A stretch of DNA of 38,190 nucleotides. Source: an uncultured Clostridia bacterium. GTDB lineage: Bacteria > Bacillota > Clostridia > Christensenellales > UBA1242. The stretch spans positions 1 to 38,190 of the forward strand of contig CANRDW010000008.1 of assembly GCA_947629505.1 (NCBI GenBank), written 5' to 3'. This document shows, in pieces, positions 1 to 36,331 of the stretch (position 1 is the stretch's first letter; each line of letters begins with the position of its first letter). The notes under the pieces were generated by a model. The model was not told where the DNA came from. It did not search any database and worked only from the letters and a program-made list of their open reading frames with translations. Made by a program: the position numbers and the translations under genes.

Positions 1-138
1 TTGTTTAACTATTACAATATGTCCAGAATGGAAGCGCAGGCTTATGCAAATGATTCTCTTCATCCAAACACCGCCGGGATGAAACTGATTTCCGACTGTT
101 TTATCGACGCACTTTACAAAAACTATGTTTTAAATTAA
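1..138 (+). CDS. C-terminal fragment of an SGNH/GDSL-type hydrolase (5' end outside window)
   Basis: Frame 1 reads ...MEAQAYANDSLHPNTAGMKLISDCFIDALYKNYVLN*; the D-x-x-H block (DSLHPNTAG) is typical of the catalytic Asp/His of SGNH hydrolases. Confidence 0.7.
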   Translation: MFNYYNMSRMEAQAYANDSLHPNTAGMKLISDCFIDALYKNYVLN

Positions 139-166
139 AAAAGGATGTGTTTTACATCCTTTTTTA
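139..166. terminator. Bidirectional rho-independent terminator between convergent genes
   Basis: AAGGATGT (141-148) / ACATCCTT (154-161) with flanking A and T tracts. Confidence 0.8.
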
Positions 167-3100
167 AACATATTCTTCTTTGTTTGGCAAAAGCACAAAT
201 TTTAGTGTTTTGTTTGCCATAGGGCTGATTGCATCGCTTGCGCTTGAGCCATCCGGCCATGGACTGTAACTTCCATCCGAATTTTTCAAAGATTCTTTAA
301 GATGTTCAATATGGTCAGTTGTTTCTCCGGCAAGTGAAGGATCGCGATAAACTCTTTGCATATGCCATTGAATATGATCGACATTCTTTACAAGTATTGT
401 GCCGTTTATTGTCTTGTATTCACACAAAAGTCGAATGTATCTTGAATCAGTGAACAATTCGCTCATCGTTCGGTTTGTAAAACTTGAAGCGCCGCCATCT
501 GTGGTGTTGGACACATTATATGAATAGAAATCAAACCCTAAGCCAAAGAAAGAGAGTGTTGATTTACTTAAATTATTTTTATTTTCATCTTGCAAATATT
601 GATCATTTTCCCAACGATAGAAAGTTGCCGGGCCGCCCGTTTCAGTGATAATCATGTTTACATAATATCTATATTCTTGTGTGGCTTTTGTAGCATTTTT
701 CCCAAACCATTCAACATAATCTTTTGCGGCATTTTTTACACTCATTATTCCTTCTTCAACAATGAAAGAGGCATAAATGTTCCCGCCATTGATGGCTTTG
801 AATGAGCTTTGCAAGTCGGCACTGTTGTTGTAATTCAATACATCAAAAAAGCCTTTAAAATACAGATGATTGTTTTTGCCGTTTTCAAGTGAAATTGCTC
901 TCAAGCATTCTGCAATGACAACATTTTCAAAATATGCATCTCTTCTTCTTGAAGTGCTTTTGCCATCAGTAAAAAGTTGTAAAGCGCAGTTTGCGACATA
1001 TCTCAGCACCGTGTTTTTAAAGAAAATTTTATCTTCATCAGCCCCTGAAATCGGATTCATTTTGCTGTAATATTGCAAGTTGCAGTAATAAGCGCCGCCT
1101 ATTTTCAATAAAATTTTATGGGTTTTGCAACTTACGGAATCTGCCGGATTTGTGCCTTTCAAAGTGACATTGTAAAGGGTGTTGAAAGTTAATGAACTGT
1201 TGCCTGTATTTTCAGAATCACCTAGTGAAGTGCAAAGAGCGGTGTTTAAGGCTTGCAGATTTATTTGATTGCCGTTGCCATAGACAAGAGTCTTGTTAAG
1301 TTGACCTACTGTTGCACTGTTTATAAACAAGTCATTTTGCACGGCTGATTCTCTCTTTGCTTTTTGTTCGGCAGTTTCTTCACCCACGGCATCCAATTCA
1401 CCTGGCCCATACAAATTGTTATGTAACACAATTTTGCTGTTGTTGTAATAGCCTGTTGCGTTGAAAACATTTACAAGAGAAGTGTCATCAAGGACATTGA
1501 AATTGAAGTGACAATTCACGCTGCCATCGCCACTTGTGCCATCGCCAGCATTTACGCGCAAGAAAGCAAAAGAATTCTCGGCGGAGATGTCAAAGTTTCT
1601 TCCACTTTTATCATCCACCACTTCTTGAGGCTGAGTCCAAGTTGAACTGTCGCCAAAATTGCCAAAATAGTCATTTTGAACATCTGTTTCTCTTAACCCA
1701 GCAAAGTTTCCAAAGTAAATTCTTGCGATTCCTGTTTCAAAGTAAGTGTCAATCCAAATTATATCTTTGATATTGCCCGGAGTTTTGCCATCTAAAGTCA
1801 GAAGAGCGTTTGTTGTTTCGTCTATCTTATATTCATTGCCCAAATAGGTTACTTTTCTGCCCTTTTGTGTGGTGATAATTTGTGTTTCTGTGTTGCCAAC
1901 CCAGCGAGATAATGTCCAAGTGATGTCATCGTTTGATGCTGATTTTTTTTGAGGGGCAACACTTTCAAGGGCGGAGAATGGCATTTTGAAATAATTTACT
2001 ATTGCGTTTTTGTAATAACTGTTTTTAGCAAACAATCTCACTTGCTGATTGCCAAGATAAATATTTTTGTTGTCAAAGCCTTCAAATTCGATAGATTGAA
2101 TTTGAACAAACGAAAAGTTGAGTTTCAAGGAAATTGTGTTGTATTTTAATGTGACATATTTGTTGAAACTGCCTTCAATTTCGCCAAACACAATGGTGAT
2201 TTCAACGTTGGCTGCGTCATAATTTGATGCCCAGCCTGTTGTGTTTAAATCCAATTCAAAATTGTTTTTAAAAGTGTCCTCGTTGCCAACTCCGCCCAAA
2301 AGCAGAGTGTTGTCTATGATGATTGACAGAGTGACATTGCCCTGGGTGTTGCCCGGCAGGCTGATGAACTCTTCTTTCAAATCTTTCACGCTGTCAAAAA
2401 ATGCGATTTGACTTGTTGTGGAAATTTTAAGTTGAAAATCATCTAATTTTATTTTACTCAATTTAATGCAAGTGGAAACACCTTCGTCTGCAGAACGGAA
2501 ATAAATGCGCTCTACATCGTCATTTATTGCAACCTTAACTTTATAATTTTCGATGACCACTTCTTGCCAAGAGTTGTTGTCAAAAGAATATTCCACTGTG
2601 TTGTTGCTGATGTTTTTGCCATCTTTTCTTGATATATCAACATCAAAGAATAATTCGTCTGCAATTGTCGTGTAAGAGTCTGTGTCATTCAATTCTTCGT
2701 TGTCAAAAGAAACGTTGATTGTGTCAGCTTTTGAAATTGACTCGATGACAAGAGTGAAAGTTTTTCCGCCAATTGTCAAATACATTGTGTCGCTTTTGCA
2801 ACTGTCTTTGCTTGTGAGGGTGATGGTGTTGTTTAAGATTACAACATCAACATATGGAGTGGACACAAGTGTTGGAATGTTTTGTGTTATGTCAAAATCT
2901 TGAGGAGTGAAATTTTCGTCAATCGTCAAAACAATTTTATCGTGAAGGTCTTTAAAAGTGAGTTTGTTTTCTTGCTCTGGCACAAGACGACCTTCTTCAT
3001 AAGTTACAACAGGATAGTCGTCCAAATTTCCATGAGTGGTGGATATTGTTCTTGGAACAACACACAAGCCAAGCCCGTCTGACAAAGAATATTTTTCATC

Positions 3101-5167
3101 GAACTCTTTTTTGTAACGCACTTCAAAAGTGATGTTTAAGTCTGTTTTCTCAGCAAAATCTATTTTGTTTGAGAAAGATTCAAAATTTTCAATTTGATAT
3201 TCATGTCCATCATAAACGATAAACAAATCTTTTCCTTCCATACAGCCATTTACATTTGAAACTGCCACGCTGTAATTGACAAAATCTTTGCTTGTGCGGA
3301 AAGTTTTTGTTGACTGACCATTAAAGGCGATTGCAAAATCATCTTCCGTCACATGATAGTCAACATATACATTTATGTCCCAAATTTTTGTTGTTTCGGC
3401 TTCGGCGTTTAAATAATGCAACACAATTTGGATGTTTGCTTCACCACCTTTAAGAGGGCTGATTTTGTAATTTCCCGTTTCGCTTTGTTGGACAAGTTCA
3501 ACAACACCAATGCCACTTACAAGATTGTATTCAACGCTTGTATCTTGTGGTGTGGTGAAATAGATGATGCCCGTGTCTTGAGTGTCCGCGTCAGACATAT
3601 TCAAAGTCACATTTATTGCACTGTCATCCATGCCAACATTGATTTCTTTTTCATTGTTTGCAAGTGAAGTGTAAGAAATGTCAATCTCTTTTGAAATATT
3701 GACGGTGTTGTCTGCTTTGTAGAGCACAACACTCACTTTGATGCTGCCAGATTTATTGAAGGTTAAAACTCCGTTGTCAAGTGATGCCACATCTGTTGTT
3801 TCAAGTTGATATTCAATTCTGTTTGTGTGATTTTCAGGGCCAATTTCAACATTTATGGTTGATAAAGATGGCCTTTTGTCATCATTTGAGAAAGTGATTT
3901 GTTTTTTGGATGTTTGAATGTTTGTTGTTTCTATTCCGTTGTAAGAGGTTGAAATTTCAGTTGCGTCACGATTGACATTTAAACGGAAAGTGTCAACATG
4001 GCTTTCATTTAGTTTGTAATTGACGGCATCATAAACTGTCGCATGCACTGTCACATCAACAAAGGTCACTCCTTTTGGCATTTGTCCAACAAAGTAAAAC
4101 CTTTTAGTTTCTTCATTGAAATTCAAAACGCCATCTGTGGTGTAGGTCACTCTCTGAATCAATTGATAAGCACCCTCAGGGGCAGTGGCAATGTAAATCG
4201 GCAATTCTTCGCCGTGGCTGTATTCATCATAATTTACTGTATAATTTTTCTCTGTAAAAAGTGGCCCAAGATAATAGCCATAAGTGGAAGTGTATTCTTT
4301 GTTCACTTCAAGGAAATTGTTGGCATAATCTGTGACGCGTGCAGTTATTTTCACATGCCCTGGCTTGTGGAAAGTTATATTGCCAAGATCGTCAACTGTT
4401 GCAACTTCATCATCGTCAGAACGATATTCAGTTGTCATGCCAAAATTGTTTGGCTTTATGTTGAGTTCTGGGAAAATTTCAGATTTTTTAGATGTCAAAA
4501 CAGATTCGCTGTCAAATTGTATTTCTTTCAATCGCGGATAGCAAGTTATTTCAACGGAAGCGGATATCTTTGGATTTTCAACAGAGGTTGCGGTCACTTT
4601 TGCAACTCCTGCACCAACAGCGGTTATTCTGCCGTTTTGATTCACTTGCAAAGCACTATAGTTTGAGCAAGACCATGTGATATATTGATTTTCTGCCTCT
4701 TTTGGATAAACATAAACTGAAAGCGTTTGAGATTCGTCTTCATACATGTTGCTGTTGTAGTTTGAAAGGATTTCCAATTTATGCACTTTGTCGTCTGTGA
4801 CAACAACTTTTCTGGATGCGGTCGCATATGTATTTTCTTTGCTGGAAATTGTTATGTAAGTTTCGCCAAAATACACTGCTGTGATTTTTCCGTTTGCGTC
4901 AACAGTTGCAACTTCTTGATTGTCACTTTTGAAATTCAAATTGCGATTTGTTGCTTTCAAAGGCAAAACTGTGACTTCGGCACCCAGGTCATAGGTTGGA
5001 GGATTTTCTTCATCGTCCATAACCAAATATATTGTGCTGTCTGATGTCAATTCAACTGATTCAACATAAATATGCACAGAAAGACTCATAATTGCTCCAC
5101 TTACAAGCAATATCATCAAAATTATCAGTGGCAAAACAATGATGATTGATGTGATTAGTTTTTTCAT
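164..5167 (-). CDS. 1667-aa N-terminally anchored extracellular protein with bacterial Ig-like (Big_2-type) repeats and a possible beta-helix-like C-terminal part
   Basis: Long ORF; N-terminal TM/signal segment MKKLITSIIIVLPLIILMILLVSG; Big_2-like phrases (DNQEVATVDANGKITAVYFGETYITISS; DDDEVATVDDLGNITFHKPGHVKITA). No LPXTG or C-terminal TM seen. Confidence 0.85.
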   Translation of the reverse strand: MKKLITSIIIVLPLIILMILLVSGAIMSLSVHIYVESVELTSDSTIYLVMDDEENPPTYDLGAEVTVLPLKATNRNLNFKSDNQEVATVDANGKITAVYFGETYITISSKENTYATASRKVVVTDDKVHKLEILSNYNSNMYEDESQTLSVYVYPKEAENQYITWSCSNYSALQVNQNGRITAVGAGVAKVTATSVENPKISASVEITCYPRLKEIQFDSESVLTSKKSEIFPELNIKPNNFGMTTEYRSDDDEVATVDDLGNITFHKPGHVKITARVTDYANNFLEVNKEYTSTYGYYLGPLFTEKNYTVNYDEYSHGEELPIYIATAPEGAYQLIQRVTYTTDGVLNFNEETKRFYFVGQMPKGVTFVDVTVHATVYDAVNYKLNESHVDTFRLNVNRDATEISTSYNGIETTNIQTSKKQITFSNDDKRPSLSTINVEIGPENHTNRIEYQLETTDVASLDNGVLTFNKSGSIKVSVVLYKADNTVNISKEIDISYTSLANNEKEINVGMDDSAINVTLNMSDADTQDTGIIYFTTPQDTSVEYNLVSGIGVVELVQQSETGNYKISPLKGGEANIQIVLHYLNAEAETTKIWDINVYVDYHVTEDDFAIAFNGQSTKTFRTSKDFVNYSVAVSNVNGCMEGKDLFIVYDGHEYQIENFESFSNKIDFAEKTDLNITFEVRYKKEFDEKYSLSDGLGLCVVPRTISTTHGNLDDYPVVTYEEGRLVPEQENKLTFKDLHDKIVLTIDENFTPQDFDITQNIPTLVSTPYVDVVILNNTITLTSKDSCKSDTMYLTIGGKTFTLVIESISKADTINVSFDNEELNDTDSYTTIADELFFDVDISRKDGKNISNNTVEYSFDNNSWQEVVIENYKVKVAINDDVERIYFRSADEGVSTCIKLSKIKLDDFQLKISTTSQIAFFDSVKDLKEEFISLPGNTQGNVTLSIIIDNTLLLGGVGNEDTFKNNFELDLNTTGWASNYDAANVEITIVFGEIEGSFNKYVTLKYNTISLKLNFSFVQIQSIEFEGFDNKNIYLGNQQVRLFAKNSYYKNAIVNYFKMPFSALESVAPQKKSASNDDITWTLSRWVGNTETQIITTQKGRKVTYLGNEYKIDETTNALLTLDGKTPGNIKDIIWIDTYFETGIARIYFGNFAGLRETDVQNDYFGNFGDSSTWTQPQEVVDDKSGRNFDISAENSFAFLRVNAGDGTSGDGSVNCHFNFNVLDDTSLVNVFNATGYYNNSKIVLHNNLYGPGELDAVGEETAEQKAKRESAVQNDLFINSATVGQLNKTLVYGNGNQINLQALNTALCTSLGDSENTGNSSLTFNTLYNVTLKGTNPADSVSCKTHKILLKIGGAYYCNLQYYSKMNPISGADEDKIFFKNTVLRYVANCALQLFTDGKSTSRRRDAYFENVVIAECLRAISLENGKNNHLYFKGFFDVLNYNNSADLQSSFKAINGGNIYASFIVEEGIMSVKNAAKDYVEWFGKNATKATQEYRYYVNMIITETGGPATFYRWENDQYLQDENKNNLSKSTLSFFGLGFDFYSYNVSNTTDGGASSFTNRTMSELFTDSRYIRLLCEYKTINGTILVKNVDHIQWHMQRVYRDPSLAGETTDHIEHLKESLKNSDGSYSPWPDGSSASDAISPMANKTLKFVLLPNKEEYV

Positions 5168-5179
5168 AACAATTCACTC

Positions 5180-6775
5180 CTAAATATTAATTTTTCTATA
5201 TTTCTTGTCAACTGTAAACCAGAAAATAAGTATATTTATGATTGAATATATAAATGCAGCAGCGATTATTATCAAATAAGCATAAACCACAGGCAAAATT
5301 TTTGGCAGAAGCAATCCGCCCGCACCTAACAATGCAGCCATTAAAAGCCCGATTATAAGCATAAAGGTGATGTTTATCTCTTCCGCCTCGCCATTTGCCT
5401 TTGGTTTAAGATTTGGATTTGCAAGATTTAAATTTATTCCGTTAAACACCAAACCTATGCTGAATAAAATTTGTGAAGATACAAGCACAGCAAGTTCTGT
5501 CAAATTGATAAATTGCAATGCCACCAAAACAATTGAACTTATAAGCAAAACCCCAAGGCTGACCATCACATTCACCGAGCCTTTAACAAGCAGTTGTTTG
5601 CGATAACTCACAGGAATGATTTTTGTTATATAAAATCTTTTCCCTTCAATGCTTAATATTGTTGCAGCGAAAGAGCTTATCATTGCCATAAACACTGAAA
5701 TGACAATCATAGATGCGCCAAAAGTGACGCCAGAGCCAAGTTGCGCTGTGCCAACGACATTTGCCAATCTGTTGCAGAAGAAAACCATGACGGGTGTGGC
5801 AATTGCAACACCTAAATAAAAATATGAATAAGTTTTGGTGTGTATGATTTCATTTAGTGTGTGCTTTAAAATTGCTTGCGAGCCGCTTAGATTGTCAATT
5901 TGTGAAAATCTTTTGTAAACATCTTCTCCGCCATCAAGCACTTTTGTCCTTATTTTGGTGTAAACATTTTTTGCAATCAAAACGCCGATAGTGATAAAAA
6001 CAAGCCCAATCCCAAGCGTTGCGCCAAGCCCAATCCAAAATTGGTCAAAAAACATTATGTTTGCAATGTAAAATGCAGGGTTGTAATATGCGTTGAGGCC
6101 GTTTATCAAATTTTGCCAAATTTCAAGCGTGCCAATTTCCCAATTGCGATGAATAAAAAATTGTGCAAGTGCATTCAAAATGAAATAATAGGCGACAAAC
6201 AATCCCACTAAAAACAGGATAAACAAAACAAGACTGATAATGTTGTGTTTTTTCAGCAGAGCGCCAAGATACATAATTGGAATTGCCAGGAAAATTGAAA
6301 GTGCAAAAGGCACAACAGTAAAAAAGATTATGCCCAAAATAATTCCAAACACATAACTCACACTTATGCAATTCATTGCAAAGCCAAATACAAGCATCAT
6401 AGGGACAAGCAATATTGTGGAGTAGATTAAAAGGTCAATGTAATTTAAAATCAAAGCGCTGGCAAAAGTTTTAAGTGGGCTGAGCGGGAAACGAGAAGTT
6501 ATAGTCAAATCTGCAGGTCTGTAAAGCCTTTTCACTTGCATGCTTGTTGCAACAATTGTCAGCCCAATCATGCTGATTGTTAAATAAAGCACAGACAGTT
6601 GTTTTGCTGTGACTGCTATGCTTGTTTGCAGCACAAAAGAAAGCCCCCAAACAAGAGCAAGCACAATTGCAATAGCGACAAGTGCCACAAGCGAAGTGAT
6701 AAATGCATTTGATTTGCTGTTGTTGCGGTTTAAGCCCCATTTCAGTTTAAGTTGCAAACGAATGAAATCAAACAT
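5180..6775 (-). CDS. Multi-TM ABC transporter permease (ABC exporter/ABC-2-like)
   Basis: 531-aa ORF with many hydrophobic segments; overlaps the ATPase gene by 8 nt. Confidence 0.75.
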   Translation of the reverse strand: MFDFIRLQLKLKWGLNRNNSKSNAFITSLVALVAIAIVLALVWGLSFVLQTSIAVTAKQLSVLYLTISMIGLTIVATSMQVKRLYRPADLTITSRFPLSPLKTFASALILNYIDLLIYSTILLVPMMLVFGFAMNCISVSYVFGIILGIIFFTVVPFALSIFLAIPIMYLGALLKKHNIISLVLFILFLVGLFVAYYFILNALAQFFIHRNWEIGTLEIWQNLINGLNAYYNPAFYIANIMFFDQFWIGLGATLGIGLVFITIGVLIAKNVYTKIRTKVLDGGEDVYKRFSQIDNLSGSQAILKHTLNEIIHTKTYSYFYLGVAIATPVMVFFCNRLANVVGTAQLGSGVTFGASMIVISVFMAMISSFAATILSIEGKRFYITKIIPVSYRKQLLVKGSVNVMVSLGVLLISSIVLVALQFINLTELAVLVSSQILFSIGLVFNGINLNLANPNLKPKANGEAEEINITFMLIIGLLMAALLGAGGLLLPKILPVVYAYLIIIAAAFIYSIINILIFWFTVDKKYRKINI

Positions 6776-7487
6776 CGTCCACCTCGTTTACTTGCATGAA
6801 TATTTTTTCCAAATCAACATTTTTATCTTTTCGCAAATCAACAATCTTTGCAATTTCGCCGTGTTTAATAAAAATCACCACATCGCACGCTTTTTTCACT
6901 GTTTCAAGGCTGTGAGAAGAAAACAAAACAGAACGCCTGTTTTTGGCATAATTTTTAATAAACTTAACAAGCAAAAGCATAGTTTGTGGGTCAAGCCCCA
7001 CCATAGGCTCGTCCAACACCCATAAAGATGGATTGTGAACAATTGCACCCAAAATACAAATTTTTTGCTTCATTCCGTGAGAGTAATTTGCAATTTGTAT
7101 GTCAAGCGCGTGATCTATGTTAAACTTTTTAGCAAGAATTTCAAGAGTGTATTTTTTCTGTTCTTTGGTTGCACCATAAATGCTGCCTATGTAGTTTATA
7201 TATTCTCGCCCTGTGAGTTTTTCATAAACAGAGTGGTCATCTGGCACATAGCCGATATGCTTTTTTGCTTGTTCGCTTTGTTTGACAATATCAAAACCGT
7301 CAATTTTAATGACTCCTTCTTGGAAAGGCAAAACGCCAATTATGCTTTTGATAATTGTGGATTTCCCCGCACCGTTGCTGCCGACAAGCCCCACAACTTC
7401 ACCTGCTTCAACAGAAAAAGATATATTATGTGCTGAAAAATTTTCATTTTTAGGATATTTTTTTGAAAGATTTTTTACTTTAAGCAT
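6768..7487 (-). CDS. ABC transporter ATP-binding protein
   Basis: Walker A GSNGAGKST, signature-like NYSHGMKQK, Walker B LWVLDEP, H-loop SSHS; RBS AAAAAAGGAG upstream of ATG. Confidence 0.95.
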   Translation of the reverse strand: MLKVKNLSKKYPKNENFSAHNISFSVEAGEVVGLVGSNGAGKSTIIKSIIGVLPFQEGVIKIDGFDIVKQSEQAKKHIGYVPDDHSVYEKLTGREYINYIGSIYGATKEQKKYTLEILAKKFNIDHALDIQIANYSHGMKQKICILGAIVHNPSLWVLDEPMVGLDPQTMLLLVKFIKNYAKNRRSVLFSSHSLETVKKACDVVIFIKHGEIAKIVDLRKDKNVDLEKIFMQVNEVDDV

Positions 7488-7512
7488 AAAAAGGCTCCTT
7501 TTTTTCCCTTTT

Positions 7513-7542
7513 ATTATAAGTTGCGGGGGGGGGATTTGTCAA
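7513..7542 (-). promoter_or_regulatory. Promoter with poly-C (C9) spacer, candidate phase-variable
   Basis: Minus strand TTGACA-AATCCCCCCCCCGCAACT(18)-TATAAT, just upstream of the ABC ATPase start. Confidence 0.75.
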
Positions 7543-15319: not shown

Positions 15320-15532
15320 ATTTTTTATTATAGCCGAAAAATCTTTTTATGTCAACTTTAATTTTTATTTTATTTAATATTTATTTAATTTTTTATGCTT
15401 AATTTAGTTGCGAAATTAATTTCAAAAATGTTAAAATAAAATTGTATAAAATTCGTGCGCATTTAATTGTAAAATTTCAGTATTTATTTTACCAATTGGC
15501 AAACACTAATTTTGCCTTATCAAAGGAGAGAT

Positions 15533-18500
15533 ATGAAAAGAAAAAGAGGAGTGTTAAGCATTTGGGCAACGCTGCTGCTTGTGCTGGTAGGCTTTGTGTG
15601 TGTGATTGGAGTGGTCACACTTATTATGTTTCTTTCTGGGCAATTAAACAAAAAGATTATTGAGCCGCAAAATTTATCAATATCTCTTGCTGATGGAAGT
15701 GAAGGGTTTGTGAGTGGGAACAACAATTTTTATGTTGCAAATGATTTTAAACTTGTTGTCAACACCACAACCGCAGATGTCACTGAAAAAACGATTAGAC
15801 TTAAATTTACAGATGGCTCGACAACTAAAAACGGCTACATAACAGACAATGACCGCATTTTGACCGTGCCAGAATATGTCACAATTGGGAAACCTTTTGA
15901 AGTCACGCTTGGAAGAGATTACAACAGCGAGTTGGATGCAGACATTGTCATTGGCGGCTTTAAAAGTTTGACGGCGGAGTCTGTTGAAAATGTTGAACTT
16001 CCACACCTTTCATTCACTGTGGCAGTGGATGTTCCTGTTTCAAACATTGAAGTGGGGGTTGATCAAGGTGCTTCCACAGTTTTCAACAATTTTCAGACAG
16101 TGACGATTGGCTCTGTGTTTGATTTTAGAGTTGATTTCAAACCTGAGCAAAGTCAGTTTGTTTTCTCTGACAACACTCAAAAGAAAGAATATTTCTATGA
16201 TTTTTCAACTTCAGGCATCAGAAGAAACTGGAACACTGGCCACTTTGAAGCATATTCAAAAAATGGCAGTGTGGATGAAGTGACAGTTTACACTTTTGCA
16301 AATTCTTATTACAGACAACTTGCTTTAAAAGAAATTGAAGAAAGTTATGAAAATCAAAATCTTAAAGACGAAAATCCTTTGGAATACAACACTGCCATGC
16401 TCAGTTATTTTGGCAGAAATCCTGCGGGAGCAGTCACATACACATTCCAAATTCAAGTTGTTGATGTGACGGTGAACAAGGATTCTTTGAAATTGAAAAA
16501 TGGTGGAAGTTACGATTCTGTTCCACTTGACCCTGTTTATGTTGACAAATATTACACACTCACTGCAAATTCAGAAAACGGCGATGACACTTTGGGCATC
16601 ACTGTCTATGACACAAGCGACACGGAAAAGCCATATCTTGTTGCAAATGTTGGAATTAAAATGCCTGAAGATATTGATATTAATGATCTTGTAATTGAGG
16701 GCGACAAGGTTATGCAAGTTGACAAAGAAACCGGCGACATTACAGAACTTCAGTTTGTTTTAGAGGATGCAAAAGGCGGCAAATATAACAGCACAGACCA
16801 ATATTCTTATTATATTTTGCCAAACACAACTCCAAAAAACAGTGGAGATTATTTCTGGCGCTTCAATGCAACAAAGGATCTTTCAACACAAACCTTTGCA
16901 ATAAACTTCTTCTATGAAAATGAAATGGGGAAGATTGTTTCATTATATGAATTTGGTGCTGACAAAGAAAAGAGTGCAATACTTACAATAAAGGAACAGA
17001 CTTATGAAGAGCCACCTTATTGGAAAGAAACTTCTGAATCTTCCGTTATTACAATGAACATCACCTATGACAGTGAGGGGACTGCAAAAACTGCCGTTGT
17101 TGACCTCAATGAATATCTCAATCCACTCAATGAAGCAAACATCTATGATGTTGTGAGATATTTCTTGATGTTCCCAACAATTAGTGGTGCTGAGGATGTC
17201 GTCAAAAATGTTTTCCCATACAAATCAGTTCATACATACACAAAAGACTATAAAGATCAACCTTTAAGTTTAAAAATTCAGGGTTATGACAAAGACAGTT
17301 ATGAATTATATGAACTTGAAACTTCACTTTTGTATGCTCTTAGAAGTTATTCTTCAACAGCGCTTGTTTTGGCGGCAACTATAAGAACAGATGCTGACCA
17401 CAATCCATATTTGGACGGAGAAGGCACTTACAAGATTGTAAACTTAAGCACGCCAAAAGCCGTTATTGTTGAAAGCGCTCTTTCAATTGTCAATATGACA
17501 CCATCTTTCTCATTTGTTAAAGAAAGAGGCATTACGCCATACAAAGATGGCAAATATTATGTGCCTGCAATAAACAGATCGGCAAGCGGCTCATCACTTG
17601 ATATGATTGAGTTTAATTTGACGGTTAATAGTGATGGTGATCCAACAACAAATGACAAAGTCATACAGGCTTTCCAAAACAAAAATCTTACAATAGAATG
17701 TTTGGACACACTGAATAATGTTTATGACATTGATTATTTGCAACTTGAATCGCTTAATGTAGAGGGAACAAAATTCAAAGGAAGAATTGCAATCAACGAA
17801 ACGGCATTCACACAAGAACATTTAGACAACTATTCAAATTTGGATGTGGGCAAACCGATTAAATTGCGCCTTGTTTACAATAATGGCGTTGAAAAGCAAT
17901 ATAAAGATATGTATTTAGAAGACGACCCTTCTGTTACAACCATGAATATTTATTATCCACAGCCATATTATGATGTCCAAGGCGGCGATGGCAAATATTA
18001 CATCGAGGGGAGATATCAAGAATTCTTTGGCTCTGCAACCACCACTACACAACACACACTTAAGGTCGATATTTCAGACACAACCACAATCAATTGGGTT
18101 GACAAAGAAGGCAGAGAAACAGATATTTCGTCATGGGGAGATGCACTTGGTCTATCAGGTGGGGCAAACGCAATTGAAATTTTAAACAAACTTTTGACTT
18201 TCACTTTAAAAGACCAATATGACAACGATATTGCTGAGGGGCTTTACAGCATTCGTCTGGTTGAAGAAGATGAAAATGGCAATCCTGTCACGGCTGGGGC
18301 GATCGGCCGCTCACAACTTTTAAATGAAATCGTAAATCTTTCTCCAACAGCAAACGGAAAGCCAACTTATCTTCGCGCGTATATTGTTGAAAATGCAATC
18401 ACAGAAAACACAGATGATTATTTTGTCAAAGTATATGACGAACAAAATGTTCCAACGGGCGACAGACTTGGCTCTGTGAGATTTGAATTTAACATCACAG

Positions 18501-21500
18501 GAAAAGGCATTAATCATATCGATTATGACAGCGACAGAGACCTGACGGCAACAACTTGGACAGATTCTCTAAACAACGGAACTGTCATAGTCGAAAAAGT
18601 CATCAATCCTACAAAGAACACCACTCCAAGCGTTGAACTAAACAAACTTGTCCACGTGTATAAGACAGGTGAGGGGCATGGGAAAGAAGACGACCACCAA
18701 AACCAAAACGGTTACGCCGATGTGATTTTCCTTCTTGACCCAGAATGGTTTGCAATGCTGTCAAGCAAAGATGAACTTTCAAAGATGTTGCAATTCAACG
18801 ACACTTTGAGTTTGACAGATGATGGAATTGAAACTACACCAATTACATCAATCAAATTTTTAAATGTGTTCAGCAGTGATACTGAATTGAAGTTTGTGAT
18901 AACTGACAGTTCAAGATTGTTTAGAATATCTTTTGTGTTTAAATGCATTTCAGATGTCGAGATTAAACCTGACTTTTCACGCTTCACCAAGCAATATGAA
19001 TCATATCTCGTTTCAAGTCCAAACAATTCACAAGAAATTGCACTTTTTGGAAATTATGAATACAAACTTGATGATTTCACAACTTTTTCCAACACACTAC
19101 ATTTAGAAAATTACTCTTGGGAAGATGCTTTTGATGGGAAAGACCCTGAAGAAAAAGACCCTGAAGGAGCATATACACTGGTTGACAGCAGCTCCCCTTC
19201 TGTTGCCAAGATAATTAAAAAAGGCTCAGACATATATTTGCATCTTGAAGAAGTTTATGTATGCACATCCGTCACCGTTGCTGTGTATTATCATATTAAA
19301 TCAACTTATTCTCCAATATTGTATCTTAACATATATATAAATCCAAATATTATAATGCGAGAAGATCTGACGCAGAGTGCAGATGGGGTGATTTTGGATT
19401 TGGCAAGTGATTTGCCAGCATTTGAAACAAATTATAAATTCTATCGCGCTCTTGGGCAGAATGGCGATGGTTATCTCAATGGAAACTCTTTTGAAGGCAA
19501 AACAGAGATACCAATTGAAAAGTTAACTTTTAATTTCGCAGAAGACCCTTCAACTCAATATATTCAAATAAGCGAAAAAACAGATGAAAGCGGAACATAT
19601 CAATACAAACTCAACACCGGCACGCTTGATTTGAAGTTTGGACAACTTGTTGCACAAAAGTTTAATGTAGTCACAGGAAATTCAGATTTCAACGCAATCA
19701 GAATTGTTACAATTGGAGATAACACAACCATATATAAATCTGACAATGCTTTGCAAATTCAACTTTACATCTCTTATGCAGCAGACGTAAGCCAAATATT
19801 CAAACAAGAAGAAAATAAAAAAATTGAAACCGTGTTGTATGGCGAAAACAAAGAAACTTATGTCATTCTTGTGCCAAACGGAAACGGCGGGCCTTCATCT
19901 TATCAACCAGCAAACAACACAGTGTTCACCTCTGTTTCTGGCGGGGCATTAACCAGACAAGATGAACAACACATCACCGTCAGCGGCACATCCTTTAAAA
20001 ACTTTATTAAATATGACAACAGCATTGTTGCCACAAGGACACTTTCAGATGGCGAGGGAACACTTGAAATCAGATTGACAGTCAATGTTATTGTGAGTGT
20101 GCTTGGCGACAAATTGCTGAATTACAACAATCAATACAACCATTTCACAGCCAAAGATGAAAAAGACAACACTGAAGAGATTGCATTCTCTGATTTGATG
20201 GCAAACGGCAATGTCTTAACTGCCAAGAATGTATATCAAGAATTGAGCGCTGGCGGAAGTTATAAAATTGTCCATGACACCAGCACAAGTAGTTCGACAA
20301 CAACCATAGACGAAAAAGAAAATGAATCGGGCTTCTATTTCTATTACAATCAAAGATACACTGTGATACTCGATATTGTGCAAGATCAATACAATATTGC
20401 ACAACGTTCTAGAAGCGAGGGCAACACCAGATATTATGACACAATAACTCTTGGAAATCTTGAAAACACATTTGGAGATGTGTATGTCATTTTGCGCCTT
20501 ACAATCACTTCGAGTGGAAACAACCTAATTTCATATTATTATCGCGTCAAAGTGACCCCAAACTTCAAAATGGGCGGAGTTATATATCCATTTGAAGTCG
20601 AAGGCGAATATCTTGACACATCTTCAAAATATTACAATGCACTCACAAAACACTATGAAATCAACCTTGACGAAAAATTTGATGAAACAAACAGTTATCT
20701 TAAAGATCAAAGCGCAGATAAAGATAAAACGGGCAAAACTCGTTTCGTAGATCCAAAAATCGAAGGGAAAACATTAACTTATTCATACAAGATTGGCAAC
20801 ATCTATGATGAGGATATCTCTTCAACCAGTCCACTTGTCGGAAAGGATTCTGATTATCTCACAAGCGCCTATGAAACTGATGGTGTTCTAGATTTCTTCA
20901 AAGATTTTGAAACGCAAGACCCAAAAACAAAATATACAAAATTAAACATTGGACTTGTTGACGAAACACGCCGCCTTACAGTTGAAATCATCAAATCATT
21001 TGAAAGTGACAACGTTTCTCTTGTCGGCGGTGACCTTGTGTATAAACTCCGCTTCAATCAAGGCAGACAATATGCATATCGTATTGAAGGGGACAATGTT
21101 TCTCCAAATCAAAAGAACAGCAACACTTACACCACAACTCTCACCGTCAACGACACAGAAAGTGACAAAGTATTTTCAATCTATCTTGCCGAAAAAGGTG
21201 GCTTAACAGAAACAGAAATTAACAATTATGATTGGTATATCACAAACACGGGAAATGACACAATTTTATCTGATAATTTTAAGTTTACTTCAAAAGGAGA
21301 AGGACAAATAGGCAAAGTTTTGACAATCACAACTCCAGCAAGCATCAAAAAAGACTTTACAGTTGAAATTGGCTTCTACACAACGCAAAAACGCGTGTTT
21401 AGATTTGTTGTAAACTTTACAAGCAATCTCAAAGAAACACCAAACGAAACTTTTGTCGGTGGCGAGACATATAAATTTGCCAAAGAAGGCGACAAAAAAG

Positions 21501-24500
21501 GTTCAATCTTTTCAAAAGATGGCTACACAATAGAAGCGAAAGAGAAAGACCCGAATGGTGCTTTCTATGCAATAACAAGCGAATCAATTGAATTTGCACA
21601 TTTGACAGAGGACAAAGATTTTACCTTCACAGCAACAAAAGGCAATTATTCATTTGACTTTACAATCACTGTCAAGGCAAGCATAAATCTTAACACTTTG
21701 CAAAACAGAATTATTACAGATCCTACCCATCGATTTGGGCAAGTTAAGTTTGATGTTAATCTTTCAGATATAATTACTGCACAAGGATTAACAGCCAGTG
21801 TAAACAGCAAGTTCACATTTGGCGCTTGGGGAGAACAACTTGTTGAAAGTCAATCAATCACCCCAGACGATGTTGCCAAAGGCGGCGAAATTGTCAGAAA
21901 GTCATTTACATTAACTTATCGCTTCAACAATAATGAAAGCACAGAAATTTCTTACACATTCAATTATCAATACACAGTTGATGAGAATGTAAAAATCACT
22001 CAAAACTATCCAAAGCCAGACGGGGAAAATCCAAGTGAAAGAGAATATCTCTCATCTGAAACGGCAAAACAATCAGATGCATTCTTCTTCACAAATGTTG
22101 CGGACTTTGCAACTGGTGCAAGAATTCAAGTTGACGACTTGACAACAGAAGTGGCAAAAGAGAAACCTATTGCACAAAAATGGACAATCAATATCACAAG
22201 TCTTAACAATCTTAGAGTTACATTTGATGGTTCAGTGATTGGAGCGGGCAGTAACATTATCACAAACACAACAATTGATGATTTAAATAACAAAGTGCTT
22301 ATCTTTGAACTTGTCAACCCTGCCATAAACGGAACTGCCGAGTTTGCGATTGAAATCAACAAAGTTCCAACAACCTATTCAGTTACAGTAGTAAGTGGCG
22401 AGGCGATTTCCATTCAACGCAACAGGCCTCAATCTGATAAGGTCGGCACAGAAATCATCTATGCTGAAAACATGCAAAACAAAGGCTCAGACATCTTTGC
22501 ACAAGACAGAATTTTGAAATATAAATTCAATCAAAATGCTGTTGGCACACACTATGTAAAACTTCAAAACGAGGCAGGAGACACTAAGATTATTGGAATC
22601 ACAGTTGATGAACTTAAACAATTTGTAAATCTCGATCTTGGAAAGTCATATACAGGTTATAAGGTTAACGGCACATATTCCACACCAGAAGCCACCGGCA
22701 CGGCAGAATCGGACAGCCAACTTTTTGAGGCTGCTCCAACCTTGACATCTCGAATTGTTGCAATTTATGCAGACGACACAGCAATCAAAAATGAAAAAGT
22801 CACCATTGAAATTAAAAGACAAGAAGAACAAGTCTATGTTGCAATTGGGGACTTTAAACTTAAATCGACAGATTTTGACAAATCTGTGACCGTTGATATA
22901 CAACTTAAATTTGACGGAAACGAAATCACTGTTCCATTCACATACGACTATATATTGACCGTTGACTTTGAAGTTGGAAACAATGCGGACAACATTGAGC
23001 CGGATGGCGCTGGCGCAAGTTATGTGACAGTCAATGCTGGCGAAGAAAAGAGTTTGCTTGATGAATTAGGATTTTTGGTTCGCCACTCATCTGGCGATAA
23101 GGCTTTATACACAAGCGCAGACATGCAAAACAGCGTTGGCAGATTGAACCTCAAACTTTATGATGATGAATTGGAAATTGAAAAGAGCGACACTGACACT
23201 CTTACAAACTCTGCATTTAATTATGATACCTATTTAAAAGCAGCAATAAATGAAGGCGGCATAATATATAAAACTGGGCTTAATCCTTTTTCGCCAAAGG
23301 GTCTCTCTTACATCACACGTAAAGGTACCAGTGTTGATACAGAAGGCAAAGAATATGATTACACACTCTCTGCAGAGGGTGCTGGAAATGACGGCAACTT
23401 TGTGATGATGCGTCTTTCATACATTGTCACCTTTGACGATGTTACAGTCACGGCTTCACACAACATTTTGCTTAAAATTTTGCCAAATTCAAGTATTTCG
23501 TTTAAAGAGAATTCAACTTCCAATGCAACGGAAGGCGACAATACCATGGTGATTGCAGGCCAAAGCATTTGGACAAATAAAAATATTAAACAATATGAAG
23601 TTGAAAACACAACCGATGGCGACTCAATCGTTTTGTGGGACAAAGAAAATCAAGCAAACAGTGCAATTCAAGTGAATATGTACAAAAATTTCAGCGCAAA
23701 AGATTTTGATTACACCTACAATCTAAAAGCCGACAGTGGCTACAACGATTGGGACGTTATGAATCAATCGTTTGATGCAGGGAATGGTCAGTGGAGCGCA
23801 GTACAAGATGAAAATAAAACAACAATAAAAGCAACTGCAACTCCAAACTCTGAGAATAATTTTGTGATAAATGTTCCATATCTTACATTTGGCACAACAA
23901 GATTTTATATTGAATTTGAAAACAACTATGGCTTCAAAGCAAGATTCTATTTCCAGAAATCTTCAGCGCTCAATCCAACAGTAAGCAAGGTTGGTGAAAA
24001 CGATGTGCTTCACGAGGGGGACAAATTTGTCTTTGGCGTGGACTTTATGCAAATCGCTTCTGACGCCCCTGTATATACATTTGTTTACAACGAAGATGGC
24101 AAAGCAGAAGATACTGGCGAGATAACAATTAAAGGTTTTGATAAACAAAAAGAAAACGGGCAAGTGGAGGTTACAGCAACCTTTGAATTTGGCATGATTT
24201 ATGCGAAAGATAAGCCGACAGCAGATAAATTTAGCAATGTACCAAGGACTTTAACTGCAACTATCAAGCGTGAGAGTGATAATATAACATCTATTAAAAT
24301 AGAAACATTAACATGGAAATTAGGTTTAGATCCAATTGATTTGTCGTCTGGGGACACAAAATTGTATTACTACAAAAATGGGAATGTTTCTCAAGCAAGC
24401 GACGTGGCAAGCTTCTTCAGAAACAATAAACCAACAATTTCTGTAGATCTGAGTGGATTGGTCCCAGATAATTCTGCAGAAGAAAATCCTACACTTCAAG

Positions 24501-27500
24501 ATATTTCAGTATTTATACAATATGGCACAAAAGTAGAAACAAAAGACCAACTGACCAGACGTTACAGAAGTGAATCTGGTGATGGGGTTGGTGTTGCTGA
24601 GGGTGCCGAATCTACGGTTGTTGTTCATATGTCAGGCATAGATGCCTATGGCTTTGACAAAAAAGATGGAATTGTTGATAAATATTCCGCAACGGGTGGT
24701 GACGGTCAACAAGATTTCACATCCAACATCAACAAAGTGTTGATCGACCATGTTGATTTCTACAAGACGGACGGCACAACTTGGCTTGGCAGCAGTATTT
24801 TGGGCAGATCAAATAAAAACGGTATAAAAGAAATTAAAGTTGGTGGAACTGATGGTGAAAGTGAGCCATATAATACAAGCGCATTAAGTGGTGACTTAGG
24901 CAAGATTTACACAAGCGAAGGTTATGAGTTTATTTTTGAGGAAGCATCAAAATTTGAGCCGGGCATAACTGTTGGCACTAAGGAAAACAACGAGTTTGTT
25001 GTCCCATACATTAACGGAATTGAATTTGGTGAAAATGAATCTATAGATGCGATTATGCGCGTGACAATCCGTGGCGGAGATCAGGACACAAACAAACAAA
25101 CTCGCACAACAGATTTCCAAGTTCAAATCAACAGAGATGATTATGTTACTTCAGCAGAAGCACAAATCAACGATGGTGCCTCTGTAACAACTGATGAAGC
25201 ATATAAATTTGCAACCAAGACTGAAGAGGTTAATGGTGAAAATACAGCAACTTGGCTTAATGACACACTTGAAATTGACCTTGCTCCATACACAACGATT
25301 AATTTTGCAGTGCATAATCGAGGCGACTTTAAAACGGAAAACAATACATTGCAAGTAAATCTTAACACGACAACTGAAAAAACTAAAGATAATTATGTTG
25401 CTGCAAGCATTAAAGAAGTAGAAAATAAAAATCCATTCTGGATCACAGCGTATGTTTCAATTTCTGGCAGCATGGTTGCTGGGGCATTTACAAAGAATTT
25501 GGATAATGATCCAAATAATGACAGAAATTTAGAAGATGCTGACAGATTCTATATCTATTTGCTTAGCCAAACCGTTGACGAGGGATATGAAACTAAAGAT
25601 GCTGTGTTTAGATATAATGGACAGGATATTACAATGAATGCTGAACAGCCACAAGCAGAAGAAACATCATTTGTTCCAAAAACAAGTGCTGGAACACCTA
25701 TTGCAGAATATAAACCGGAAAGCATAACTCTTCGCATAAACGACACAAGAGAATTGAGTAGCGGGCATAAACAAGTTGAACTTTACTTCTTGAAGAAGAT
25801 GGGAAGCAAGACCATGTATGCTGACGGCAACAGAGTTTACAGATATTCAAAATCATTCTCAGTGCATCCAGAATATAGTGTTGCCATTCCTCAAATAAAT
25901 GGTGGGGATGGGGAAACCTTGCAAATTTCAGATTATTACAAAGTTACTCACAAAAATAATGAGCAAGACCCAGGAACTTCTTATTATGTCATTCCAATGA
26001 GCGTTTGGGGCAAAAATGTTATGCTGAAAGTCAATGAAAGTGACAAGAACGAAGAAGGCGCTTCAATTTCAGAAAAAGAGGCATATAAATATGAGTTTGA
26101 AATTGAACAAGCACAAGGCTCCGCTTCAATTGACAAGTATGGCAACATCATCACAAACTCTGACTTTGGACTTTCTTGGAACCAAATGAGCGTCACTATT
26201 TGCACAAAAGTTGCCGGATTTGATTGCAAATTTGAGGACGGAAATGGCACAGTTGATTTAACACAAATTGGCGTTCCGGGCAAAGAAATTAAATTGTCAT
26301 TTAAGAAAGCAGAATCAGAACCAACAGAAGGAATAGAAGAAACTCCAGGATGCTATTACATTGAAGGCTTGAATAGAACACTGATTACTCTCGGCGAAGG
26401 GGATACATTGTATGCAATTGGTGATGTTTCAAAGACTGCAAGCCTAGTTGGCGAAGTAGATAGCAAAACAACAATCCCAGACTTTGCGTTGACTCCAAAT
26501 CAGCAACTTGATTTACAACAAATGTTTAAAGACGTATTTAGAGACAAAGGTTGGACAAATGTCAACTTCTATTTGGTGGGCTATTCTAAGGATGAAGGAG
26601 ATATCAACACAATTGTTAGAAACAACATTGATGTATATCAAGCGGGTTTTGCTGAAGCGGGCACATACAAGATAACAGTTGTCGCAACGGGAAAAACAAA
26701 CAATCAAACAGAAAAACAAACTGAGCAGTTCACCTCCACCATTTATGTTTATGACACATCAGAGCCAATAAGTATAGCCTATGCTCAAAATGTAGATAAT
26801 GGTGGTACAGCAAATTTATCTATAATTACGGGCACTGGTGAAGGTGAAACATGGTATGAACTTAAAGACGGAAAGACAACAAAGTATGAGGACGGGAAAG
26901 TCACTGTCAAAAAGGGAGTTGAGGACAGACAATTCTTGCTTGGCAACAGGCTTTACAAAATCACCTTTGTTGGCTATGGAAATACAAATGGAGAAGATGC
27001 AATTAAAAAAGAAGTTGCAACCAGCGTCAACTACTCTCTTTCAAATCTTGTTGACAACAAGGGCGGAAAATTCTATAAAATTGTAAATGTAAATGGGAAA
27101 AATCAACTTAGCCGTGATTATAACATTGAATATATCTCAGCCAATTATGGAACATCCAGGGTAGAGAAATATTTCTACAGCATAAATGGAACAATCACCA
27201 AATATGAAGTGACCTATCATATTGTTTCATCAAGCATAACAAACTACAACGGCACTTTGCCGGTTACAGCTGCCCATGAAGTTTCAAAATATGATGTTTA
27301 TAGTCTGGTTAAGGAAATGCTCAACATTCAAATGAAAATTTCAGAAGAAGCAAACACAGAAGAAGCAATATTGGAAGAAATGTTAAAATACATGACAATC
27401 TACGAGAAAGGTACAAATGGAGTTTTGACTGAATTCAACGGCAAAACATTTAGTTCTGATGAGTGGGGAGATGGCTTGGCGAGTTACAGATTCAGCGATC

Positions 27501-27862
27501 TCGTTGTAATTTGGGGCAAGAGCGGCTCTTCTGAAAAATCTCAACAAATCACTTTGGATTGTTTCTTGTTTGAAAATGAAAAAACAGTTGTAATTGATGA
27601 TGTTGACAGGAATATAACTTACAACCTTGCAAATGCAAGCGAGCCAATTTTAAAAGCGCTTGAAATAACAGACGCTGGTTCTATCACATTCTATGAAATA
27701 AAAGATGGCGTTGTTGACATAAGAGCCGCTGTTTCAGAGATTTTCCTTGGAAACTATCTTGCAAGTGGCAAATATGAGGGAACATTCTTAATCAATGTTG
27801 GAAACAAGTATTATAAAATAAACCTCACTCTCAACATCAAAAAGGCACAGGTGACAGGATGA
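15533..27862 (+). CDS. Giant (about 4109 aa) N-terminally anchored extracellular protein
   Basis: Continuous ORF; RBS AAAGGAG before ATG 15533 (MKRKRGVLSIWATLLLVLVGFVCVIGVVTLIMFLSG); beta-rich, low-Cys repetitive extracellular-type sequence; no LPXTG or C-terminal TM seen. Confidence 0.9.
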   Translation: MKRKRGVLSIWATLLLVLVGFVCVIGVVTLIMFLSGQLNKKIIEPQNLSISLADGSEGFVSGNNNFYVANDFKLVVNTTTADVTEKTIRLKFTDGSTTKNGYITDNDRILTVPEYVTIGKPFEVTLGRDYNSELDADIVIGGFKSLTAESVENVELPHLSFTVAVDVPVSNIEVGVDQGASTVFNNFQTVTIGSVFDFRVDFKPEQSQFVFSDNTQKKEYFYDFSTSGIRRNWNTGHFEAYSKNGSVDEVTVYTFANSYYRQLALKEIEESYENQNLKDENPLEYNTAMLSYFGRNPAGAVTYTFQIQVVDVTVNKDSLKLKNGGSYDSVPLDPVYVDKYYTLTANSENGDDTLGITVYDTSDTEKPYLVANVGIKMPEDIDINDLVIEGDKVMQVDKETGDITELQFVLEDAKGGKYNSTDQYSYYILPNTTPKNSGDYFWRFNATKDLSTQTFAINFFYENEMGKIVSLYEFGADKEKSAILTIKEQTYEEPPYWKETSESSVITMNITYDSEGTAKTAVVDLNEYLNPLNEANIYDVVRYFLMFPTISGAEDVVKNVFPYKSVHTYTKDYKDQPLSLKIQGYDKDSYELYELETSLLYALRSYSSTALVLAATIRTDADHNPYLDGEGTYKIVNLSTPKAVIVESALSIVNMTPSFSFVKERGITPYKDGKYYVPAINRSASGSSLDMIEFNLTVNSDGDPTTNDKVIQAFQNKNLTIECLDTLNNVYDIDYLQLESLNVEGTKFKGRIAINETAFTQEHLDNYSNLDVGKPIKLRLVYNNGVEKQYKDMYLEDDPSVTTMNIYYPQPYYDVQGGDGKYYIEGRYQEFFGSATTTTQHTLKVDISDTTTINWVDKEGRETDISSWGDALGLSGGANAIEILNKLLTFTLKDQYDNDIAEGLYSIRLVEEDENGNPVTAGAIGRSQLLNEIVNLSPTANGKPTYLRAYIVENAITENTDDYFVKVYDEQNVPTGDRLGSVRFEFNITGKGINHIDYDSDRDLTATTWTDSLNNGTVIVEKVINPTKNTTPSVELNKLVHVYKTGEGHGKEDDHQNQNGYADVIFLLDPEWFAMLSSKDELSKMLQFNDTLSLTDDGIETTPITSIKFLNVFSSDTELKFVITDSSRLFRISFVFKCISDVEIKPDFSRFTKQYESYLVSSPNNSQEIALFGNYEYKLDDFTTFSNTLHLENYSWEDAFDGKDPEEKDPEGAYTLVDSSSPSVAKIIKKGSDIYLHLEEVYVCTSVTVAVYYHIKSTYSPILYLNIYINPNIIMREDLTQSADGVILDLASDLPAFETNYKFYRALGQNGDGYLNGNSFEGKTEIPIEKLTFNFAEDPSTQYIQISEKTDESGTYQYKLNTGTLDLKFGQLVAQKFNVVTGNSDFNAIRIVTIGDNTTIYKSDNALQIQLYISYAADVSQIFKQEENKKIETVLYGENKETYVILVPNGNGGPSSYQPANNTVFTSVSGGALTRQDEQHITVSGTSFKNFIKYDNSIVATRTLSDGEGTLEIRLTVNVIVSVLGDKLLNYNNQYNHFTAKDEKDNTEEIAFSDLMANGNVLTAKNVYQELSAGGSYKIVHDTSTSSSTTTIDEKENESGFYFYYNQRYTVILDIVQDQYNIAQRSRSEGNTRYYDTITLGNLENTFGDVYVILRLTITSSGNNLISYYYRVKVTPNFKMGGVIYPFEVEGEYLDTSSKYYNALTKHYEINLDEKFDETNSYLKDQSADKDKTGKTRFVDPKIEGKTLTYSYKIGNIYDEDISSTSPLVGKDSDYLTSAYETDGVLDFFKDFETQDPKTKYTKLNIGLVDETRRLTVEIIKSFESDNVSLVGGDLVYKLRFNQGRQYAYRIEGDNVSPNQKNSNTYTTTLTVNDTESDKVFSIYLAEKGGLTETEINNYDWYITNTGNDTILSDNFKFTSKGEGQIGKVLTITTPASIKKDFTVEIGFYTTQKRVFRFVVNFTSNLKETPNETFVGGETYKFAKEGDKKGSIFSKDGYTIEAKEKDPNGAFYAITSESIEFAHLTEDKDFTFTATKGNYSFDFTITVKASINLNTLQNRIITDPTHRFGQVKFDVNLSDIITAQGLTASVNSKFTFGAWGEQLVESQSITPDDVAKGGEIVRKSFTLTYRFNNNESTEISYTFNYQYTVDENVKITQNYPKPDGENPSEREYLSSETAKQSDAFFFTNVADFATGARIQVDDLTTEVAKEKPIAQKWTINITSLNNLRVTFDGSVIGAGSNIITNTTIDDLNNKVLIFELVNPAINGTAEFAIEINKVPTTYSVTVVSGEAISIQRNRPQSDKVGTEIIYAENMQNKGSDIFAQDRILKYKFNQNAVGTHYVKLQNEAGDTKIIGITVDELKQFVNLDLGKSYTGYKVNGTYSTPEATGTAESDSQLFEAAPTLTSRIVAIYADDTAIKNEKVTIEIKRQEEQVYVAIGDFKLKSTDFDKSVTVDIQLKFDGNEITVPFTYDYILTVDFEVGNNADNIEPDGAGASYVTVNAGEEKSLLDELGFLVRHSSGDKALYTSADMQNSVGRLNLKLYDDELEIEKSDTDTLTNSAFNYDTYLKAAINEGGIIYKTGLNPFSPKGLSYITRKGTSVDTEGKEYDYTLSAEGAGNDGNFVMMRLSYIVTFDDVTVTASHNILLKILPNSSISFKENSTSNATEGDNTMVIAGQSIWTNKNIKQYEVENTTDGDSIVLWDKENQANSAIQVNMYKNFSAKDFDYTYNLKADSGYNDWDVMNQSFDAGNGQWSAVQDENKTTIKATATPNSENNFVINVPYLTFGTTRFYIEFENNYGFKARFYFQKSSALNPTVSKVGENDVLHEGDKFVFGVDFMQIASDAPVYTFVYNEDGKAEDTGEITIKGFDKQKENGQVEVTATFEFGMIYAKDKPTADKFSNVPRTLTATIKRESDNITSIKIETLTWKLGLDPIDLSSGDTKLYYYKNGNVSQASDVASFFRNNKPTISVDLSGLVPDNSAEENPTLQDISVFIQYGTKVETKDQLTRRYRSESGDGVGVAEGAESTVVVHMSGIDAYGFDKKDGIVDKYSATGGDGQQDFTSNINKVLIDHVDFYKTDGTTWLGSSILGRSNKNGIKEIKVGGTDGESEPYNTSALSGDLGKIYTSEGYEFIFEEASKFEPGITVGTKENNEFVVPYINGIEFGENESIDAIMRVTIRGGDQDTNKQTRTTDFQVQINRDDYVTSAEAQINDGASVTTDEAYKFATKTEEVNGENTATWLNDTLEIDLAPYTTINFAVHNRGDFKTENNTLQVNLNTTTEKTKDNYVAASIKEVENKNPFWITAYVSISGSMVAGAFTKNLDNDPNNDRNLEDADRFYIYLLSQTVDEGYETKDAVFRYNGQDITMNAEQPQAEETSFVPKTSAGTPIAEYKPESITLRINDTRELSSGHKQVELYFLKKMGSKTMYADGNRVYRYSKSFSVHPEYSVAIPQINGGDGETLQISDYYKVTHKNNEQDPGTSYYVIPMSVWGKNVMLKVNESDKNEEGASISEKEAYKYEFEIEQAQGSASIDKYGNIITNSDFGLSWNQMSVTICTKVAGFDCKFEDGNGTVDLTQIGVPGKEIKLSFKKAESEPTEGIEETPGCYYIEGLNRTLITLGEGDTLYAIGDVSKTASLVGEVDSKTTIPDFALTPNQQLDLQQMFKDVFRDKGWTNVNFYLVGYSKDEGDINTIVRNNIDVYQAGFAEAGTYKITVVATGKTNNQTEKQTEQFTSTIYVYDTSEPISIAYAQNVDNGGTANLSIITGTGEGETWYELKDGKTTKYEDGKVTVKKGVEDRQFLLGNRLYKITFVGYGNTNGEDAIKKEVATSVNYSLSNLVDNKGGKFYKIVNVNGKNQLSRDYNIEYISANYGTSRVEKYFYSINGTITKYEVTYHIVSSSITNYNGTLPVTAAHEVSKYDVYSLVKEMLNIQMKISEEANTEEAILEEMLKYMTIYEKGTNGVLTEFNGKTFSSDEWGDGLASYRFSDLVVIWGKSGSSEKSQQITLDCFLFENEKTVVIDDVDRNITYNLANASEPILKALEITDAGSITFYEIKDGVVDIRAAVSEIFLGNYLASGKYEGTFLINVGNKYYKINLTLNIKKAQVTG

Positions 27863-32488: not shown

Positions 32489-32553
32489 AGACACCTCTAT
32501 AAAGTATATTTTAAACATAAAACAACAAAAAAGCAAGCAAAGAACAATTAAAA

Positions 32554-35703: not shown

Positions 35704-36267
35704 TTATAAATTTTTCAATTTTTCGTCGGCCTTGTCCACAATTTCGCCTTTTGAAGTCTTCATAATATCCTTTGAGATTTCCTTATTTATTTGCGAATTT
35801 AGTTTTTTCATTGTTGCGTCCGAAAATTGACTTTTTTCATTGCGGTAGTCCAACTGCACAAAAGCCTTTGTAAGTTTTAAGAATTCTTGGACTTCTTCTT
35901 TTGTTTCTACTTTCATTTTGCCAAGAACTTTTGCAAATTCTCCAACGCGTTTAGCATAAGAAGAAATGTTTCTGCAAGAAATATCCACTTTATCCCTATC
36001 CCTAGGAGCAAACAAGCCGTAAACCATTTTGTGAACTATTGTTGTTGTATTTTGGTCGAAATTATGATTAAATAATATAATTTCCACATAAAGTTTTGCT
36101 GCGCGTTTAAAGTCTGGATTATCCTTAAGTAAATACAATTGCCCTAATTGTGCTACACTTATATTCGCATCTGTTTGAAGCTCTTCGACCATTGTTAAAC
36201 CAGCAAGCCAATCCAATACTTCTTTTCGGCTTTTCTCATCTTCCCACCATTTTATTGATTCACTCAT
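35704..36267 (-). CDS. Uncharacterised soluble helical protein, 187 aa
   Basis: Intact ORF; RBS GGGAG; own poly-C promoter. Confidence 0.75.
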   Translation of the reverse strand: MSESIKWWEDEKSRKEVLDWLAGLTMVEELQTDANISVAQLGQLYLLKDNPDFKRAAKLYVEIILFNHNFDQNTTTIVHKMVYGLFAPRDRDKVDISCRNISSYAKRVGEFAKVLGKMKVETKEEVQEFLKLTKAFVQLDYRNEKSQFSDATMKKLNSQINKEISKDIMKTSKGEIVDKADEKLKNL

Positions 36268-36303: not shown

Positions 36304-36331
36304 ATTATACTGCGGGGGGGGGACTTGTCAA
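36304..36331 (-). promoter_or_regulatory. Promoter with poly-C (C9) spacer, candidate phase-variable
   Basis: Minus strand TTGACA-AGTCCCCCCCCCGCAG(16)-TATAAT; near-copy of 7513-7542. Confidence 0.8.

Follow-up and report, generated by a model that had tools for sequence, protein, structure and literature searches.

A run of nine Cs lies inside the spacer of a perfect sigma-70-type promoter just upstream of an operon encoding an ABC transporter ATPase, a permease-like membrane protein and a giant protein with bacterial Ig-like domains in an uncultured gut bacterium, and its anatomy, non-random recurrence and length differences between copies and species strongly support the reading that this promoter is phase variable by slipped-strand mispairing, although switching within a population and its effect on transcription are inferred from assembled genomes. 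We analysed a 38,190-nt stretch of DNA (contig CANRDW010000008.1, positions 1 to 38,190, which we refer to as the window), which forms one contig of a 991 kb metagenome-assembled genome (MAG) in 43 contigs. The promoter reads TTGACA-AAT-CCCCCCCCC-GCAACT-TATAAT on the minus strand and is the only 12/12 sigma-70 match between 5 and 9 kb. This confirmed the promoter with its C9 tract and 18-nt spacer reported in the preliminary description, which had also proposed that it was phase variable, that the three genes form a single operon and that a 17-nt spacer would be optimal. C or G runs in the window have lengths of 1–5, then none of 6–8, then exactly two of 9; runs of 7 or more gave 6 overlapping matches against 0.52 expected, a value reached in 0 of 100 shuffles. 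The second C9 is also inside a perfect promoter (TTGACA-AGT-C9-GCAG-TATAAT, spacer 16), upstream of an open-reading frame with a likely ribosome-binding site. The features of the window are collected in the table.

Table: Coordinates of the promoter, operon and other features within the window
Feature	Position	Strand	Details
-35 hexamer	7537..7542	-	TTGACA
C9 tract	7525..7533	-	inside the 18-nt spacer (7519-7536)
-10 hexamer	7513..7518	-	TATAAT
Likely ribosome-binding site	7495..7499	-	AGGAG, upstream of the ATPase ATG (7485-7487)
ABC transporter ATPase	6768..7487	-	239 aa; Pfam PF00005, E=3.5e-31; orthologues 76-79% in the genus
ABC permease-like membrane protein	5180..6775	-	531 aa; no Pfam hit; 8-bp overlap with the ATPase gene
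Probably exported protein	164..5167	-	1667 aa; bacterial Ig-like (Big_2) domains, hydrophobic N-terminus; 12-bp gap to the permease gene
Terminator-like stem	135..167	-	end of the operon
Second tract promoter	36304..36331	-	tract 36314-36322
Protein downstream of the second tract promoter	35704..36267	-	187 aa; no Pfam hit
Apparently another giant exported protein	15512-27862		4116-aa ORF, read by eye
Cardiolipin-synthase-like ORF	27859-29313		read by eye
VirD4/TraG-like coupling protein	30452-32536		read by eye; suggests conjugation or a type IV secretion apparatus

The three genes overlap or nearly touch and their order is conserved in a second copy in the same genome (ATPase 76%, permease 48%, giant protein 24–34%) and in two further genomes of the genus (which we refer to as G003 and G056), with giant proteins of 1316–2191 aa, which supports the reading of the three genes as one operon, whose exported product appears to diverge fastest. 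Upstream of the ATPase, the window carries C9 with a spacer of 18, the second copy C9 with a spacer of 19, G003 C8 with a spacer of 13 and another relative, G019, C10 with a spacer of 20 (with a weak -10, TTAAAT), whilst G056 and a further genome, G047, have another promoter without a tract. G003 also carries a G10 in the permease at which the reading frame breaks, and two independent tracts in one operon argue for selection for switching of this operon.

The promoter is not isolated. The genome of the window contains 27 C/G runs of 8 or more, where Markov models of order 1–4 built on the window expect 1.5–5.5. Fourteen of these lie in -35/-10 spacers (12 as C and 2 as G on the coding strand), usually 3–4 nt after TTGACA, whereas with random flanks 0.3% of tracts would do so; some -10 assignments are loose (for example at position 10622 of contig C6). 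Twelve are inside genes and one is neither. In 9 of the 12 intragenic tracts the frame that enters the tract is not the frame that is open after it, whilst in 3 (a family-2 glycosyltransferase, a nucleotidyltransferase-aminotransferase and one unknown) the two agree, which is near the 1/3 expected if length drifts. Six of the nine are paralogues with a conserved hydrophobic leader and tracts of G8, G9, G9, G10, G10 and G10, so that drift of homopolymer length through reading frames is written in this assembly. Intragenic G tracts were found in glycosyltransferases, a nucleotidyltransferase-aminotransferase, a peptidase-like gene and an isochorismatase-like gene (the last two by eye; loci L024, L026, L038, L041 and L009), of which L009, L038 and L041 are out of frame at the tract. 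All genomes compared are metagenome assemblies and homopolymers are error-prone, yet a neutral origin by mutation bias, or an artefact of assembly or contamination, is contradicted by the concentration of tracts in promoter spacers, by the absence of C/G runs of 6–8 in the window and by recurrence in dozens of independent MAGs, and we consider it very unlikely.

Across 61 genomes of the genus, including that of the window, the pattern TTGACA-N2-5-C7+-N2-12-TANNNT was present in 31 and the G version in 28, whilst the reversed control pattern never hit. In a sample of the order, the stricter motif was present in 4 of 11 genus members, 0 of 6 other family members and 4 of 231 others; the placing of the organism in gut Clostridia rests on these labels. 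MAGs labelled Mucispirillum or Deferribacterales also carry TTGACA-C7+-TATAAT promoters, suggesting an independent occurrence in another gut lineage, and three IMG/VR contigs carry the C-tract spacer promoter. A search of viral contigs with the window's own flanks found nothing. Parsing of 101 C-type promoters gave tracts of 7–11 (64 with C9) and spacers of 13–20; the negative covariation between tract length and the rest of the spacer expected if total spacing were fixed by selection was not found (r=0.06). Some genomes carry dispersed families of one promoter: TTGACAAAAAATGC-G7/8-TA(A/G)AAT occurs about 25 times in the relative G032, with G7–G9 in G008 and G8–G11 in G043, and the genes behind them often start with a signal-like sequence. 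Many G032 tract promoters are followed, just downstream of the -10, by an inverted repeat (AGGGTATCC...GGATACCCT or AGGTTAGC...GCTAACCT; loci L183, L186, L190 and L193) with apparently compensating changes, possibly a 5' UTR hairpin or a mobile-element end. Among the loci examined across the genus, 58 of 113 tract-promoter genes have a hydrophobic N-terminus against 60 of 242 others (P=2e-6), but in the window's own genome only 3 of 12 do. The suggestion of a surface antigen in the preliminary description is reasonable for this operon, but many other tract-promoter genes of this genome encode proteins without a signal peptide; for several of these, mostly without Pfam hits (one has WG repeats, one an HEILH zinc-protease-like motif seen by eye), the role as switched genes is unclear.

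Among the ALTERNATIVES, one is that the C/G block is a fixed operator or promoter-recognition element, in which a regulator or special sigma factor recognises TTGACA-n3-C9-G and the genes form a regulon without length switching. This would explain the narrow length distribution with its mode at 9, the start of the tract 3–4 nt after the -35 in 79 of 101 promoters, the G that follows it in 80 of 101, the near-identical, lineage-specific promoter families and the few interrupted C-rich blocks (C5-T-C4 and similar) in otherwise typical spacer promoters, for example G029:C29:5529, G030:C5:38714 and G038:C4:70921 (genome, contig and position), which are perhaps switches locked by point mutation. 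However, the block may be C or G, next to the -35 or next to the -10, with unrelated flanks in different species and lengths that vary from 7 to 11. Pure runs of 5–6 and interruptions, which a binding site would tolerate, are rare: at the tested position 1 of about 65 tracts is interrupted, only one pure C5 run was found and runs of exactly 5 are almost all interrupted longer blocks. The same runs also occur inside genes where they break frames, which an operator cannot explain, and we regard this alternative as unlikely.

A slow tuning knob or decayed switch, in which length differs between species but hardly within one and the tract sets promoter strength over evolution, also appears improbable, although it cannot be excluded without reads. 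We tested whether mismatch repair is missing and rejected this: MutS is present in 59 of 61 genomes, and in that of the window it is apparently intact, which should lower single-base slippage, so the switching rate may be moderate (one genome of the genus also contains, at G037:C41:10086-11534, a 3413-aa open frame with two MutS_I-like matches). Tract lengths, which are assembly consensus, are mostly C9 in four further MAGs as well, and related copies differ by at most 1, which stable selection could also give; a nearly identical promoter pair (1/140 flank mismatches) has the same C9 and says little. Near-identical promoter cores differ in tract length within genomes (C9/C10, C10/C11, G7/G8 and G8–G11). 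Against slow tuning, tracts stay pure in copies whose flanks diverge by 12–30%, and the nine out-of-frame intragenic tracts in one assembled genome, among them a whole paralogous family, are expected for frequent reversible switching and costly otherwise.

We therefore favour, with good confidence, the interpretation that the promoter spacer carries a mutable C tract in which slipped-strand mispairing adds or removes single Cs, moving the spacer between about 16 and 20 nt, so that RNA polymerase binding, and with it expression of the operon, is inferred to switch stochastically and reversibly between cells. Tract-free consensus promoters of this genome peak at a spacer of 17 (19 of 35), in agreement with the proposed 17-nt optimum, whilst tract promoters do not (2 of 14; P=0.013; one -10 is ambiguous, but neither choice gives 17). 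This suggests that C8 (17 nt) should be the strong state, C9 (18 nt) intermediate and C10 or more weak. With 14 such promoters beside 12 intragenic tracts, the genome appears to hold a multi-locus contingency (bet-hedging) system, the inferred benefit of which would be to evade immunity, phages or competitors. It is more likely than not that a whole genus of uncultured gut Clostridia runs such a genome-wide system with the homopolymer promoter spacer as its main switch, in which promoter cassettes with a C or G tract placed in front of many genes give combinatorial random expression states in commensal bacteria. If so, cells of one such population, in bacteria not known as pathogens, are predicted to show different combinations of surface proteins and transporters, and tract lengths would become usable as a readout of selection in the gut.

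The mechanism itself is known, whilst the lineage, the number of loci and the weight of promoter spacers are, as far as the open-licence literature that we searched shows, not described; no paper joining Christensenellales and phase variation was found, and nothing matching was found for homopolymer phase variation in uncultured Clostridia. In the porA, opc and fetA promoters of Neisseria meningitidis an unstable homopolymer between -35 and -10, upstream of genes for surface proteins, is thought to alter sigma-factor binding (PMC2791445); there, a few promoters in a pathogen are involved, whereas here 14 are present in one AT-rich genome of an uncultured gut clostridial lineage, with dispersed promoter families of up to about 25 copies in relatives, although switching itself is inferred here. 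Campylobacter jejuni has about the same number of G/C tracts in a small AT-rich genome (29 of 7 or more in NCTC11168; PMC4965091), of similar lengths (mostly G8–G10) and with intragenic tracts that set ON/OFF frames, but 23 of its 29 are within reading frames and 3 intergenic, whilst here 14 of 27 are in core-promoter spacers. Mycoplasma variable lipoprotein families and the invertible promoters of C. difficile and Bacteroides give stochastic switching of surface-protein gene families, or of promoters, in host-associated bacteria (PMC11868660), but invertible promoters need a recombinase and inverted repeats, whereas here the variable element is a homopolymer.
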